From an uncultured Vicinamibacterales bacterium (lineage in GTDB: Bacteria; Acidobacteriota; Vicinamibacteria; Vicinamibacterales; UBA8438), in contig OY282382.1 in NCBI GenBank assembly GCA_958295905.1, positions 868,001 through 932,000 on the forward strand: a stretch of 64,000 nt of DNA, written 5' to 3'. The notes below the pieces were generated by a model that had not been told where the DNA came from, ran no database searches, and worked only from the letters and a program-made list of their open reading frames with translations. Positions 6,030-64,000 of this stretch are shown one piece after another; position 1 is the stretch's first letter; each line of letters begins with the position of its first letter. The position numbers and the translations under genes were made by a program.

Positions 6030-8303
6030 TCAGCCGCCCCGCACGAGGCGCACGGGGGGGCCGTCGTCCCCGCGGGGCTCGACGGCGCCGATGATCACCG
6101 CCTGCGCGTATCCCCGGGCGAGGAGGTCGGCGAGACAGGCGTCGGCGCGATCCGCCGGCACTCCGGCGAGGAGACCGCCCGCCGTCTGCGGGTCGAACAG
6201 CAGGCGGTAGCGCGGATCGCCGGCGTGCTCCTCGGGGGCGTCCACCGCGCGCCGCAGCCGTACGTTGTGGGGATGGAGCGAACTCAGGAATCCGGCCCGG
6301 CTCGTCTCCAGCGCCCCGTCCAGCACCGGAATCGCGGGCAGATCGAGCCGGACGGCGACCTCCGACGCGCGCGTCATCTCCACGAGATGCCCCAGCAGCC
6401 CGAACCCCGTCACGTCGGTGCACGCCGTCGCCCCGTGTTGCCGCAGCGACGCCGCCGCGAGCCGGCTGGACTGGCGCATCGCCGCGATGGCGCCGTCGAT
6501 CCAGCGCCCCTTCGCCCGCATCCGCATCTCGGCCGCGAACAGGGTGCCGGTGCCGAGCCCCTTCGTGAGCACGAGCCGGTCGCCGGGACGCAGGCCGCCC
6601 TTGCGCAGAATCGCTCCGGCGTCGACCAGCCCCGTCAGCGACAGCCCCAGGCCGAGCTCGGCCCCTTCCGACGTGTGCCCGCCGACCAGCGCCGCCCCCG
6701 CCTCGTTGAGCACCCCGATCGCCCCGGCGAGGAGCTGCGCCAGGGTGTCCTCGACCTTCCGATCGAGCCCGAACGGCACCGTCGCCACCGCCAGCGCGGT
6801 CTGCGCCTCGGCGCCCATCGCGAAGATGTCGCCCAGGCAGTGGTTGGCGGTAATCTCGCCGAACACGAACGGGTCGTCCACGATGGCCCGGAAGGCGTCG
6901 ACGGTCCGCACGAGCACCTTGCCCGGCGGAACCCGCACCACCGCGGCGTCGTCCGGGGCGTCGAGGCCGATCAGCACGTCGTCCCGCCGCACCGGCGTCA
7001 ACCGGGCCAGCACGCGGTCCAGGGGCGTCGCCCCGACCTTCGACCCGCAGCCGCCGCAGCGCATCGCGGCCGTCGAGATCGCCTGGAGGTCCTCCGGCCC
7101 CGCCAGCCCCGCCGAGACCGCCGGGCCGGTCGGTCGGCGCATCTCCGGCAGGTCGGCGTACTTCGCCATGAACCGGCGGTCGATCCAGTCCTTCCAGCGC
7201 CACGCCAGGGCCCCTTCGAACGACCGGGTGCCGCGTCCCCCGACCGCATAGCGGTCGCCGGTGGACACCAGCGTGAGGAACCGGCGCTGGGGGTGGAACG
7301 GCCGGGGGCGGCGCCCGAGGAGGGCGCGGCGCAGGTTGCGCGCGAGGGGCGGGCCCTGGCGCACCGCGAACACGCCGGCCTTCTCGCGGGGATTACCGAC
7401 GACCGCGGCGGCGTCGCCGGCCGCGAACACGTCGGGGTGCGACGTCGAGCGCAGGGTGTCGTCGACCGCGATGAAGCCCTCGTCGTCGACCGCGAGACCG
7501 GCGTCGCGGGGCCAACGCGCGGCCCCCGCCTGCGTGACCCATAGAATCTCGTCGAGCCGCACCGCCGCGCCGTCGCCGCAGACCACCACGCCCCCGCGCA
7601 CCGCCGTCACCGGCTGTCCGAGGTGCAGGTGCGCGCCGCGCGCCCGCAGCACGCGCTCGAGCCGCTGCCGCACGCCGGCATTGTGGGTCGGCAGAATGGT
7701 CTCCTCCGCCCCGAACAGGTGCATCTCCGGGACCTGCCCGCCCCGGTCCGACCCCGCCAGCATCTGCCGCAGCGCGAACTGCATGGCGAGCAGCAGCTCG
7801 ACGCCCCCGGCGCCGGCCCCCACCACCCCGATCCGCATCGGAGCCTCGGCGGACAGGACGCGGGCGCGCAGCCGCGTCCACCGCTCGACGAAGCGGCCGA
7901 TGGGCTTGACGGGTATCACCGCCTCCGCCGCCCCCGGCACCCCGTGGAACGCGGGGGTGGAGCCGACGTTGATCGACACGATGTCGTAGGGGACCGGCGG
8001 GCGTCCCTCGCAGCGCACCTCGCGCCGGTCGAGGTCGAGCCCCACGGCCGGCTGATGATACAGCCGGGCGCCCGCGAACCGGGCCAGGCGGGCCAGGTCG
8101 ATGTGCACGTCGTCGAACGTGTAGTGCCCGGCCACGAGGCCCGGCAGCATCCCCGAGTACGGGGTGTGGACGTCGCGCGCGATCAGCGTGATGCGCACGC
8201 CGGGCTCGGGACGCATGCCGAACCGCCTGAGCACCGCGACATGGGTATGCCCGCCCCCGATCAGCACGAGGTCCTTGACGACGGGCACGGTGCGGTCGTT
8301 CAT
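6030..8303 (-). CDS. selD: NAD(P)/FAD-dependent oxidoreductase fused to selenide, water dikinase (SelD)
   Basis: This 757-residue fusion makes selenophosphate, the selenium donor for selenocysteine and selenouridine. Residues 1 to about 395 form a pyridine-nucleotide-disulfide/NDH-2-like flavoprotein: LVLIGGGHTHVAVL binds FAD, GVVGAGAGGVELLLAMQ is the second Rossmann motif, and HPDVFAAGDAA closes the flavin site. From about residue 414 comes a full SelD: MRCGGCGSKVG with the catalytic Cys (not Sec) before the lysine, GLDAPDDAAVV, NHCLGDIFAMGA, and the ATP/metal segment LVGGHTSEGAELGLGLSLTG. The fusion architecture is known in several phyla. The start ATG at 8301-8303 lies directly before the dinucleotide-binding motif; the longer frame adds low-complexity sequence. 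It supplies the pathway needed by the three candidate selenoprotein genes at 36.5, 50.0 and 62.4 kb. Confidence 0.95.
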   Translation of the reverse strand: MNDRTVPVVKDLVLIGGGHTHVAVLRRFGMRPEPGVRITLIARDVHTPYSGMLPGLVAGHYTFDDVHIDLARLARFAGARLYHQPAVGLDLDRREVRCEGRPPVPYDIVSINVGSTPAFHGVPGAAEAVIPVKPIGRFVERWTRLRARVLSAEAPMRIGVVGAGAGGVELLLAMQFALRQMLAGSDRGGQVPEMHLFGAEETILPTHNAGVRQRLERVLRARGAHLHLGQPVTAVRGGVVVCGDGAAVRLDEILWVTQAGAARWPRDAGLAVDDEGFIAVDDTLRSTSHPDVFAAGDAAAVVGNPREKAGVFAVRQGPPLARNLRRALLGRRPRPFHPQRRFLTLVSTGDRYAVGGRGTRSFEGALAWRWKDWIDRRFMAKYADLPEMRRPTGPAVSAGLAGPEDLQAISTAAMRCGGCGSKVGATPLDRVLARLTPVRRDDVLIGLDAPDDAAVVRVPPGKVLVRTVDAFRAIVDDPFVFGEITANHCLGDIFAMGAEAQTALAVATVPFGLDRKVEDTLAQLLAGAIGVLNEAGAALVGGHTSEGAELGLGLSLTGLVDAGAILRKGGLRPGDRLVLTKGLGTGTLFAAEMRMRAKGRWIDGAIAAMRQSSRLAAASLRQHGATACTDVTGFGLLGHLVEMTRASEVAVRLDLPAIPVLDGALETSRAGFLSSLHPHNVRLRRAVDAPEEHAGDPRYRLLFDPQTAGGLLAGVPADRADACLADLLARGYAQAVIIGAVEPRGDDGPPVRLVRGG

Positions 8304-8700
8304 CACAGGGTTCTCGACAATCCGGAATCGGCCGGCATCCGGGGGCCCCGGCCGGGGCCCCGCCGCCTTCGACGGCCGGCCTCGGTGTATAACGCGGTTT
8401 CGCCGTCGACTCCCGGCCGGGAATCGCCGCCCGCGGCTCCGCGGGCCGCCCGACCGACCCTCCCGGGGTCGGGGCGACGGCGGGCGTCGGCGCCGTTCTC
8501 CGCCGCGGCCGCCGGGCCCCGGAATCGGCCCCCGCGGCTCCATGGGCCGCCAACCAACCCCGCAGGGCCCTATCGGCGCGCCGCTCGTTTGCGCCGTCGC
8601 CAGCGCCCCCGCGGCTCCATTGCCGCCAACCAACCCTGCCGGGGCCGGCGCCTCCAGCCGGGGCCCGCGCCGTCCAGCGGCCCAGCCTCCCGGCGCGGGA
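8304..8700. other. GC-rich intergenic region, about 400 bp
   Basis: Between the SelD fusion and the aminotransferase, both on the minus strand. It holds several degenerate direct copies of a GGCTCC..TTGCCGCCAACCAACCC motif (near 8535-8570 and 8605-8645), related to the segments at 5647-5705 and 49731-49790. No gene is supported. Confidence 0.5.
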
Positions 8701-22108: not shown

Positions 22109-22235
22109 GGGGCATCTGTAGAGTCGACGACTGGCGCGGTGGCGGTAGGCGGATGGGGGTAGCTGTTTCCGGCCGCTTTCGCCCGGTGCCGGTGCCTCAC
22201 TCCCCGCCGTGACTCCGTTTCCAGTCGCCGCTCAT

Positions 22236-22269
22236 CGAACCGGACATGCGGATTTCCCGCATCCGGCTC
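22236..22269 (-). ncRNA. Group II intron domain V
   Basis: On the minus strand the sequence is GAGCCGGATGCGG, then a GAAA tetraloop, then TCCGCATGTCCGGTTC. This is a canonical domain V: the AGC catalytic triad near the 5' side, a GNRA loop, and the two-helix layout with a bulge. A domain VI-like stem follows. Confidence 0.88.
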
Positions 22270-22279
22270 TCGGACGAGA

Positions 22280-61825: not shown

Positions 61826-62266
61826 ATGAACGACCGAAAATACCGCCAGCGGGGCTATCAGGACGACGGCGGCGGCCGCGAACCGGCTGACCGGCCGGGT
61901 CAGCCCCGCGGGGACGGCGCGCCGCGCAGCGTCATCAACCGGCAGCACCGGCCGCCGAACCTGCCCGGCTTCCACGACGTCATGCGGTGCGCCCGTTGCC
62001 GCCGGACCCTGCGGTCGGCGATCGGCCCGGAAACGACCTGTCCCGCGTGCGGGTCGGCCCTCCACACCTGCGCGCAGTGCGCGTCCTTCGACAGCGGCAG
62101 CCGTTTCGAGTGCCTCCAGCCGGTGAAGGTCCGCGTATTCCCCAAGGACGCCCGCAACGAGTGCGCCCACTTCGCCCCGCGGGTGACCGTCGAGCGCCGG
62201 ACGCGCTCGGAGGCCGCCGCCGGTCCCCGCAGCGCCAAGCAGGCTTTCGAGGATCTCTTCAAGTAG
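61826..62266 (+). CDS. Zinc-ribbon protein of unknown function
   Basis: A 146-residue protein. A charged N-terminus is followed by paired zinc-binding cysteines MRCARCRRTL and TCPACGSALHTCAQCASF, then C in RFECLQPV and C-H in NECAHFAPRV, enough for two zinc sites. The C-terminus (SAKQAFEDLFK) is conserved-looking. I do not recognise a named family. It is transcribed in the direction of the redoxin gene 109 bp downstream. Confidence 0.75.
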   Translation: MNDRKYRQRGYQDDGGGREPADRPGQPRGDGAPRSVINRQHRPPNLPGFHDVMRCARCRRTLRSAIGPETTCPACGSALHTCAQCASFDSGSRFECLQPVKVRVFPKDARNECAHFAPRVTVERRTRSEAAAGPRSAKQAFEDLFK

Positions 62267-62375: not shown

Positions 62376-63008
62376 ATGGACGCCCGTACCCCGGCCGATC
62401 TCGAAGCGGCGCTCGCCGATCTCGCGGCGCCGGTGAAACTCCTGTTCTTCACCCGGACGTTCGGTTGCGACACCTGCGGGTCCGCGCGGCGGATCGTGGA
62501 CTCGATCGCGTCGCTGTCCGACCGCGTGACCGTCGAGGAGTTCAACCTGGTGCTCGACAAGGACGAGGTCCGGGACTACGGCATCCGGCGCGCGCCGGCG
62601 ATTGCGGTGGTCGGCGAGGCCGATACCGGAATCCGGTTCTACGGCGCGCCCGACGGCCACGAGCTCGTCTCCCTGATCGACGCCATCGCCCTCGTCGCCT
62701 CCCGCGACTCCGGTCTGAGCGGCGAGAGCCGCGCCCGGCTGGCGGAAGTGGAGCAGCCGATCGACATCCAGGTCTTCGTCACCCCCACCTGACCCCACTG
62801 TCCCCAGGCGGTCAGCTTGGCCCATCGCATGGCTCTCGCCAGTCCCCACGTCACCGCCGCCGCGGTCGCGGCGGTCGAGTATCCGGACCTCGTGCGGCAG
62901 TACCGGGTGACCGGGGTGCCGAAGACGGTGATCAACGGCCGCGTCGAGATTCTCGGCGCGGTGCCCGAGGCCGCGTTCGTCAGCCAGGTCGTGGAGTCGG
63001 TGGCATGA
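62376..63008 (+). CDS. Two-site thioredoxin-fold selenoprotein (CxxC plus UxxC), read through UGA
   Basis: Read with UGA 62790-62792 as selenocysteine this is a 210-residue protein built like protein disulfide oxidoreductase (tandem glutaredoxin-like domains). The first site is TFGCDTCGSARR (about residues 29-40). The second is VFVTPT-Sec-PHCPQAV with Sec139, where homologues have CPHC. After the UGA the frame stays open for 71 codons: LAHRMALASPHV, EYPDLVRQYRVTGVPKTVIN with the cis-Pro of the fold, then INGRVEILGAVPEAAFV. The stop overlaps the M61 peptidase start (ATGA). PDO proteins reduce or shuffle disulfides, often with thioredoxin reductase. A hairpin 17 bases after the UGA fits a SECIS. 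A nonsense mutation is unlikely because both domains are intact and the UGA hits the catalytic position. Confidence 0.88.
62804..62820 (+). promoter_or_regulatory. Bacterial SECIS candidate for the redoxin gene
   Basis: CCAGGC (62804-62809), loop GGTCA, GCTTGG (62815-62820): a 6-bp stem with one G-U pair. The loop begins with GG and starts 18 bases after the UGA's last base, within the known range though near its short end. Confidence 0.6.
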
Positions 63009-64000
63009 CGGTGCGGGGCGGCGGGATCGCCGCGTTGCGGGTGGCCGGGCTGGTCGCTCTGGGACTTGCGGCGGCTTGGTTCATGCCGCGGGCCGGGGGG
63101 CAGACCGGCGTCGACGGCGGCGGGCCGTCCGTCGCCTACGAGCTGCGCTTTCCCGAGCCGGAGCATCGCTGGATGGAGGTCGCGGTGACGGCGGCCGGCC
63201 TCCCGCCCGCGCCGTTGAGCATGCGGATGAGCACCGCCTCGCCGGGGCGCTACGCGAGACATGATTTCGCGAAGAACGTGTTCGAGGTGCGGGCGTTCGA
63301 CGGCGCCGGCAACATCCTCGCCCCGGTCCGGTCCGCGATGGCGCGCTGGGACGTGGCCGGCCATGACGGGACGGTGCGGTTCGTCTACCGCGTGTACGGC
63401 GACCGGGTGGACGGCACGTATCTCGCGATCGACGATTCCCATGCGCACCTCAACATGCCCGCCGCCCTGATGTGGGGATCCGGGCTGGAGCAGCGGCCGG
63501 CCACCGTCCGGTTCGAGCCCCCGCCGGACAGCGGCTGGAGGGTGGCCACGCAGCTCTATCCGTCGGACGACCCGTTCGTCTACACCGCGCCGAACCTGCC
63601 GTATCTGCTCGACAGTCCGGCCGAGCTGAGCCGCTTCGCGGAGCGGTCGTTCACCGTCGCAGACCCCGCCGATGCCGGCCACCGGCCGGTGTTCCGGATT
63701 GCGATGCACCACGGCGGGGGCGATCGCGAGCTCGACCGGTACGCGCAGGACGTCGAACGGATAGTGCGCGAGATGGTGCGCGTGTTCGGCGAGTTCCCGC
63801 GGTTCGAGACCGGCCGCTACACGTTCATCGCCGACTATCTGCCGGCCGCCTCGGGCGACGCCATGGAGCACCGGAACAGCACCGTGCTGAGCGCGCCGGC
63901 GACGTTGCGGGCCCAGCGGCGGCGCCTGCTGGGTTCGGTGTCGCACGAGTTCTTCCACGTCTGGAACGTGGAACGGATTCGCCCCCGGTCGCTCGAGCCG
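63005..64000 (+). CDS. M61-family glycyl aminopeptidase-like protein (3' truncated by window edge)
   Basis: 332 codons are visible. Signal peptide (VAGLVALGLAAAWFMPRAGG), then the N-terminal beta domain of M61 peptidases (VAYELRFPEPEHRWMEVAVT, STASPGRYARHDFAKNVFEV), and the catalytic domain beginning TFIADYLPAASGDAMEHRNS and the zinc motif SVSHEFFHVWNVERIRP (HExxH). M61 enzymes usually also have a C-terminal PDZ domain and are about 600 residues, so nearly half is outside the window. The start overlaps the redoxin gene's stop by 4 bp. Confidence 0.92.
   Translation, partial: MTVRGGGIAALRVAGLVALGLAAAWFMPRAGGQTGVDGGGPSVAYELRFPEPEHRWMEVAVTAAGLPPAPLSMRMSTASPGRYARHDFAKNVFEVRAFDGAGNILAPVRSAMARWDVAGHDGTVRFVYRVYGDRVDGTYLAIDDSHAHLNMPAALMWGSGLEQRPATVRFEPPPDSGWRVATQLYPSDDPFVYTAPNLPYLLDSPAELSRFAERSFTVADPADAGHRPVFRIAMHHGGGDRELDRYAQDVERIVREMVRVFGEFPRFETGRYTFIADYLPAASGDAMEHRNSTVLSAPATLRAQRRRLLGSVSHEFFHVWNVERIRPRSLEP

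Follow-up and report, generated by a model that had tools for sequence, protein, structure and literature searches.

A predicted selenocysteine-containing member of the protein disulfide oxidoreductase family in an Acidobacteriota genome

The gene at 62376 to 63008 of the window (the whole stretch of 64,000 nucleotides analysed, from an uncultured Vicinamibacterales bacterium) almost certainly encodes a genuine selenoprotein of the protein disulfide oxidoreductase (PDO, TIGR02187) family, in which an in-frame UGA specifies selenocysteine (Sec) at residue 139; the product is probably a cytoplasmic thiol-disulfide reductase. The assignment draws on the pattern of codons at position 139 in homologs, the TIGR02187 score, the distribution of the Sec machinery among genomes and a Sec-specific stability of the RNA hairpin. 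The reading frame extends from ATG 62376 to a terminal TGA at 63006-63008 and is interrupted solely by the in-frame TGA at 62790-62792, which is codon 139. The features of the gene are as follows.

62376..63008, + strand: selenoprotein coding sequence, a two-domain protein disulfide oxidoreductase of 210 residues with predicted Sec139 (from the sequence, TIGR02187 and the fold model)
62466..62477, + strand: N-terminal active site Cys31-Asp-Thr-Cys34 (GCDTCG), read from the sequence
62790..62801, + strand: predicted C-terminal active site Sec139(UGA)-Pro-His-Cys142 (from the sequence and 190 homologous loci)

The arrangement given in a preliminary description of this DNA, a CxxC site (GCDTCG) followed by a UxxC site (U-PHC), is seen directly in the sequence, and the residue before Sec139 is T, so that the second site reads T-U-P-H-C.

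The translation matches the NCBIfam profile TIGR02187 (PDO_seleno_TRX, "protein disulfide oxidoreductase") with 242.8 bits against a cut-off of 185, over residues 7-207 of the protein and 6-208 of the 209 profile positions. An AlphaFold2 model, built from an alignment of 55 locus sequences with Cys substituted for Sec, had a mean pLDDT of 95 and a pTM of 0.91. Together, the full-length profile match and the model bear out the earlier proposal of two thioredoxin folds in one frame across the UGA at 62790. The features of PDO membership found were thus the full-length match, the two thioredoxin folds, and the motifs CDTC (31-34) and UPHC (139-142). The PDO-like fold that had been suggested was recovered as well: the top structural matches were the PDOs of P. 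furiosus (1A8L) and A. aeolicus (2AYT/2YWM), with TM scores of 0.91-0.92, and ranks 1-7 in the PDB were all occupied by PDO or PDO-type glutaredoxin-like proteins, followed by AhpF N-terminal domains. By sequence also, the nearest solved structures came from Aquifex aeolicus and Pyrococcus and were PDO-type proteins (E about 5e-36). The window protein shares with 1A8L and 2AYT/2YWM two thioredoxin folds per chain and 33-36% identity along almost the entire sequence. Those PDOs, however, come from hyperthermophiles and have Cys in both CxxC sites, whereas the window protein has Sec as the predicted C-terminal nucleophile. Judged by its sequence, it is a variant of the archaeal/Aquifex-type protein disulfide oxidoreductase with Sec in the C-terminal site.

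The N-terminal domain of AhpF (1ZYN, 5H29) also has a double thioredoxin-like fold and is akin to the window protein in sequence and structure, but it is part of a larger flavoprotein; the window protein is a stand-alone chain of 210 residues that lacks the flavoprotein part. Identity as AhpF was rejected, the scores being far below the cut-offs (67.8 vs 502.9 bits for TIGR03140; 100.3 vs 687.65 bits for TIGR03143). A plasmid search gave no close relative; among the matches listed, AhpF-like and other proteins all had less than 30% identity.

The preliminary description had considered a mixed Cys/Sec protein of this kind unusual and perhaps little described. This view is not supported, since NCBIfam already names the family PDO_seleno_TRX, reviews list it, and CxxC plus UxxC is the commonest layout of the Sec members (74 of 107 rows). 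PDO is listed as a known selenoprotein family and credited to Kryukov and Gladyshev 2004 (PMC9312934, PMC13188914, PMC1794560, PMC11227280); two bacterial Sec-PDO members were listed in 2006 (PMC1794560), and four members occur in Asgard archaea (PMC11227280). With the family on record since 2004, the window protein is therefore a further member of a known family. It can be likened to the known Sec-PDO ABB15282.1 through the profile and the motif listed in reviews (PMC9312934, PMC13188914): both are full-length matches to one NCBIfam family and have a UxxC site with one Sec, but the window protein is from Acidobacteriota and ABB15282.1 from another phylum. Among the open-licence papers searched, none dealing with selenoproteomes of Acidobacteriota from assembled genomes was found.

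A plausible mechanism can be proposed by analogy with archaeal PDO. The PDO of S. solfataricus transfers thiols mainly at its C-terminal site, receives electrons from thioredoxin reductase and passes them to peroxiredoxins, and requires both sites for isomerase activity (PMC7465337). In the window gene, the ribosome would decode the UGA at 62790 as Sec with the help of SelB, tRNA-Sec and a hairpin that follows immediately, so that Sec would be the nucleophile of the UPHC site in the C-terminal thioredoxin fold, with CDTC retained in the N-terminal site. The protein would then most likely act as a cytoplasmic thiol-disulfide reductase, a reading that Sec in the C-terminal site fits because this is the main site in S. 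solfataricus PDO; Sec would presumably make that site more reactive. If electron donor and substrates can be carried over from the archaeal work, the PDO would be reduced by thioredoxin reductase or a similar flavoenzyme, thiol transfer, to peroxiredoxins or to disulfides in proteins, would take place mainly at the UxxC site, and the CxxC site may be a helper with a relay or isomerase function. A thioredoxin reductase is encoded in the source genome.

Some room must be left for a Sec protein that works chiefly as oxidase or isomerase, or that serves a single peroxidase as its dedicated donor, instead of being a general reductase. The window protein does have both of the sites that the S. solfataricus enzyme needs for isomerase activity. 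However, in two large related Sec clades the first site has disappeared and UxxC persists, so that the conserved function there does not need two sites, and we regard such specialised roles as rather unlikely. In both groups, f2 (GGSESG-like) and f17/f18 (ADPESE-like), Cys is absent from the first site and (U/C)xxC is retained; the Sec-PDO loci without the first CxxC in these families are L156, L161, L173-L180, L186-L190 and L201-L203. In all, both first-site cysteines are absent from 32 Sec rows and 4 Cys rows.

Homologs were collected from 198 relative genomes and from a second set of genomes that covers many phyla. Codon 139 was TGA in 115, TGT in 39 and TGC in 36 of 190 homologous loci, with no other codon found; these loci include some organisms twice, being drawn from two collections, and deduplication left 106 Sec and 73 Cys sequences. 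The occurrence of only TGA, TGT or TGC in 190 of 190 loci argues that the in-frame TGA did not arise by chance. The UGA aligns with the conserved redox Cys of the homologs. Cys at residue 139, for which the preliminary description had proposed to look, is thus frequent, and the Cys homologs, found in Bacillota, Bathyarchaeota, Thermoplasmatota, Chloroflexota and others, have a single frame through this codon. Downstream of the TGA the frame is open in relatives, and changes are mainly synonymous and in third positions, a pattern of purifying selection that by sequence comparison goes on past the TGA.

The source genome has a tRNA-Sec gene (selC) with anticodon tca, as well as selA, selB and selD. 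Together with the codon pattern, this upholds the earlier selenoprotein call, and we infer that Sec is inserted at residue 139. The selD domain lies in the window.

6147..7073, - strand: SelD domain (selenide, water dikinase), inside a longer ORF at 6030-8633

In this ORF (- strand) the N-terminal part is FAD/NADH-dehydrogenase-like; SelD appears as the C-terminal part and keeps the CGSK motif. Among the relative genomes, selB was present in 87 of 99 with the TGA form and in 4 of 14 with only the Cys form (Fisher p 7e-6). The remaining 12 TGA-form genomes all had a selA match, one of them partial and under the cut-off, and tRNA-Sec was present in 8 of the 12. Of the 10 Cys-only genomes without selB, 8 were tested for selA and tRNA-Sec, and both were absent from all 8. 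In one genome of the same genus (G001) selB was present and PDO was not found; PDO is thus seemingly not essential to Sec users.

These observations bear on two other ways of reading the TGA. One is that it is a true stop, in a pseudogene or through a sequencing error, with the second half being relic DNA or a separate gene. The first 138 residues do contain a complete first thioredoxin domain, and an ORF of 63 residues, started by TTG 62817, follows the TGA. But TGA has been kept at one codon in the 115 loci, from many independent genomes, and alternates only with Cys codons; purifying selection persists beyond it; and the truncated product would, according to the model, end inside the second fold, just before the active-site helix. 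The preliminary description had named two outcomes that would speak against a selenoprotein, homologs that end at residue 138 and a second half that is a gene of its own. The first is contradicted by the Cys homologs, which continue straight through codon 139, and the second by the TTG 62817 ORF, the sole later in-frame start listed, which lacks the first strand and the active site of the second domain. A true stop is therefore highly improbable. Readthrough of the UGA as Trp or a near-cognate residue, without selenium, would in principle not need SelB, but it is just as remote, given that the same gene uses TGA (63006-63008) as its stop, that Cys alone replaces the TGA residue in homologs, and that TGA members are found in genomes with Sec machinery and Cys-only genomes mostly lack it.

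Accepting the Sec reading, a gene caller unaware of Sec would cut the protein off after residue 138, ahead of its main active site, and many Acidobacteriota would then seem to have a defective enzyme or none.

The RNA downstream of the UGA was examined for a bacterial SECIS element. A putative element was identified.

62804..62820, + strand: predicted bacterial SECIS-like apical hairpin, CCAGGC-GGUCA-GCUUGG (family-wide support, weak in the single sequence)

In most Sec members the hairpin following the UGA has 6-8 pairs, and the loop is often GGUC, GGUCA or GUC; G22 and U23 do not vary in a set of 52 diverse Sec sequences. Compared with synonymous recodings, the folding of this region had a mean z of -1.57 in Sec sequences (n=106) and -0.09 in Cys sequences (n=73); 9 of 10 Cys proteins nested in the Sec clade showed no significant folding excess. 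This test was used in place of an RNAalifold consensus, which contained no pairs for the 52 Sec sequences, probably because the register of the stem shifts by one base between lineages. A count in fixed columns gave modest support, with 73.4% of cells paired against a maximum of 55.8% in slid versions. The signal is weak in the window sequence alone (hairpin z -1.37, with 18 of 200 shuffles equally good; synonymous-recoding p 0.26), so that the proposed SECIS assignment for the window gene rests on the family. Thus the SECIS fold anticipated earlier was found across the family but was not significant in the window sequence by itself. When this sequence is folded alone, a competing hairpin, UGACC/GGUCA, forms; the apical hairpin is preferred because the competitor overlaps the UGA and lacks the usual SECIS shape.

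The history of the two active sites was followed in a maximum-likelihood tree that comprised 86 members of the clade, almost all of them Acidobacteriota relatives, and 10 outgroup rows. Within the clade the tree requires a minimum of 7 changes between Sec and Cys and of 6 in the first site, counts that give no direction. Several Cys forms (L046, L138, L139, L153, L163, L170, L197 and L058) are nested in the Acidobacteriota Sec clade, some of them on long branches; selB is missing from most of the genomes that carry them, and the eight tested have neither selA nor tRNA-Sec. Since Cys members are nested in Sec clades and most of their genomes have no Sec machinery, change from Sec to Cys is the likelier direction, and the nesting suggests repeated reversal. 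The history that we favour, with some reserve, is that in Acidobacteriota an ancestral Sec-PDO clade kept (U/C)xxC throughout, lost the first CxxC at least in f2 and f17/f18, and reverted from Sec to Cys several times, mostly where selA/selB/selC were lost. Prokaryotic Sec-to-Cys substitutions are rare and documented mainly for FdhA and SelD (PMC13188914; 2026 review). Repeated loss of the first CxxC with UxxC kept, along with the apparent Sec-to-Cys reversals, looks less described than the family itself. Near relatives with either Sec or Cys at the same site, some with and some without a second redox site, make the family a natural comparison that could be used to ask why selenium is retained or abandoned. 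In genome G120 there are two Sec-PDO genes (L182, L183) on different contigs; G029 (L172/L181) and G121 (L043/L191) have one Sec and one Cys copy each.

Two neighboring genes flank the PDO gene in the window.

61826..62266, + strand: Cys-rich zinc-ribbon-like protein of 146 residues, the upstream conserved neighbor (from the ORF and homologs)
63005..64000, + strand: M61-type peptidase, downstream, truncated at the end of the window (start overlapping the selenoprotein stop in ATGA)

The coupling to the next gene by ATGA that had been noted is seen directly at 63005-63008, where the stop of the selenoprotein overlaps the peptidase start, ATG 63005; ending translation at the internal TGA would presumably abolish this tight coupling. 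The upstream protein has three CxxC pairs and two further Cys, and all 8 Cys are invariant in 74-76 homologs; it had no Pfam or NCBIfam family above its cut-off. Its gene usually adjoins the PDO gene. It was considered as an obligate partner of PDO and rejected because it is commoner, being present in 160 of 198 genomes as compared with 117 of 198 for PDO. Elsewhere in the window, an Rfam group II intron match at 22139-22271 (- strand) is barely above the gathering score (40.8 vs 40 bits).
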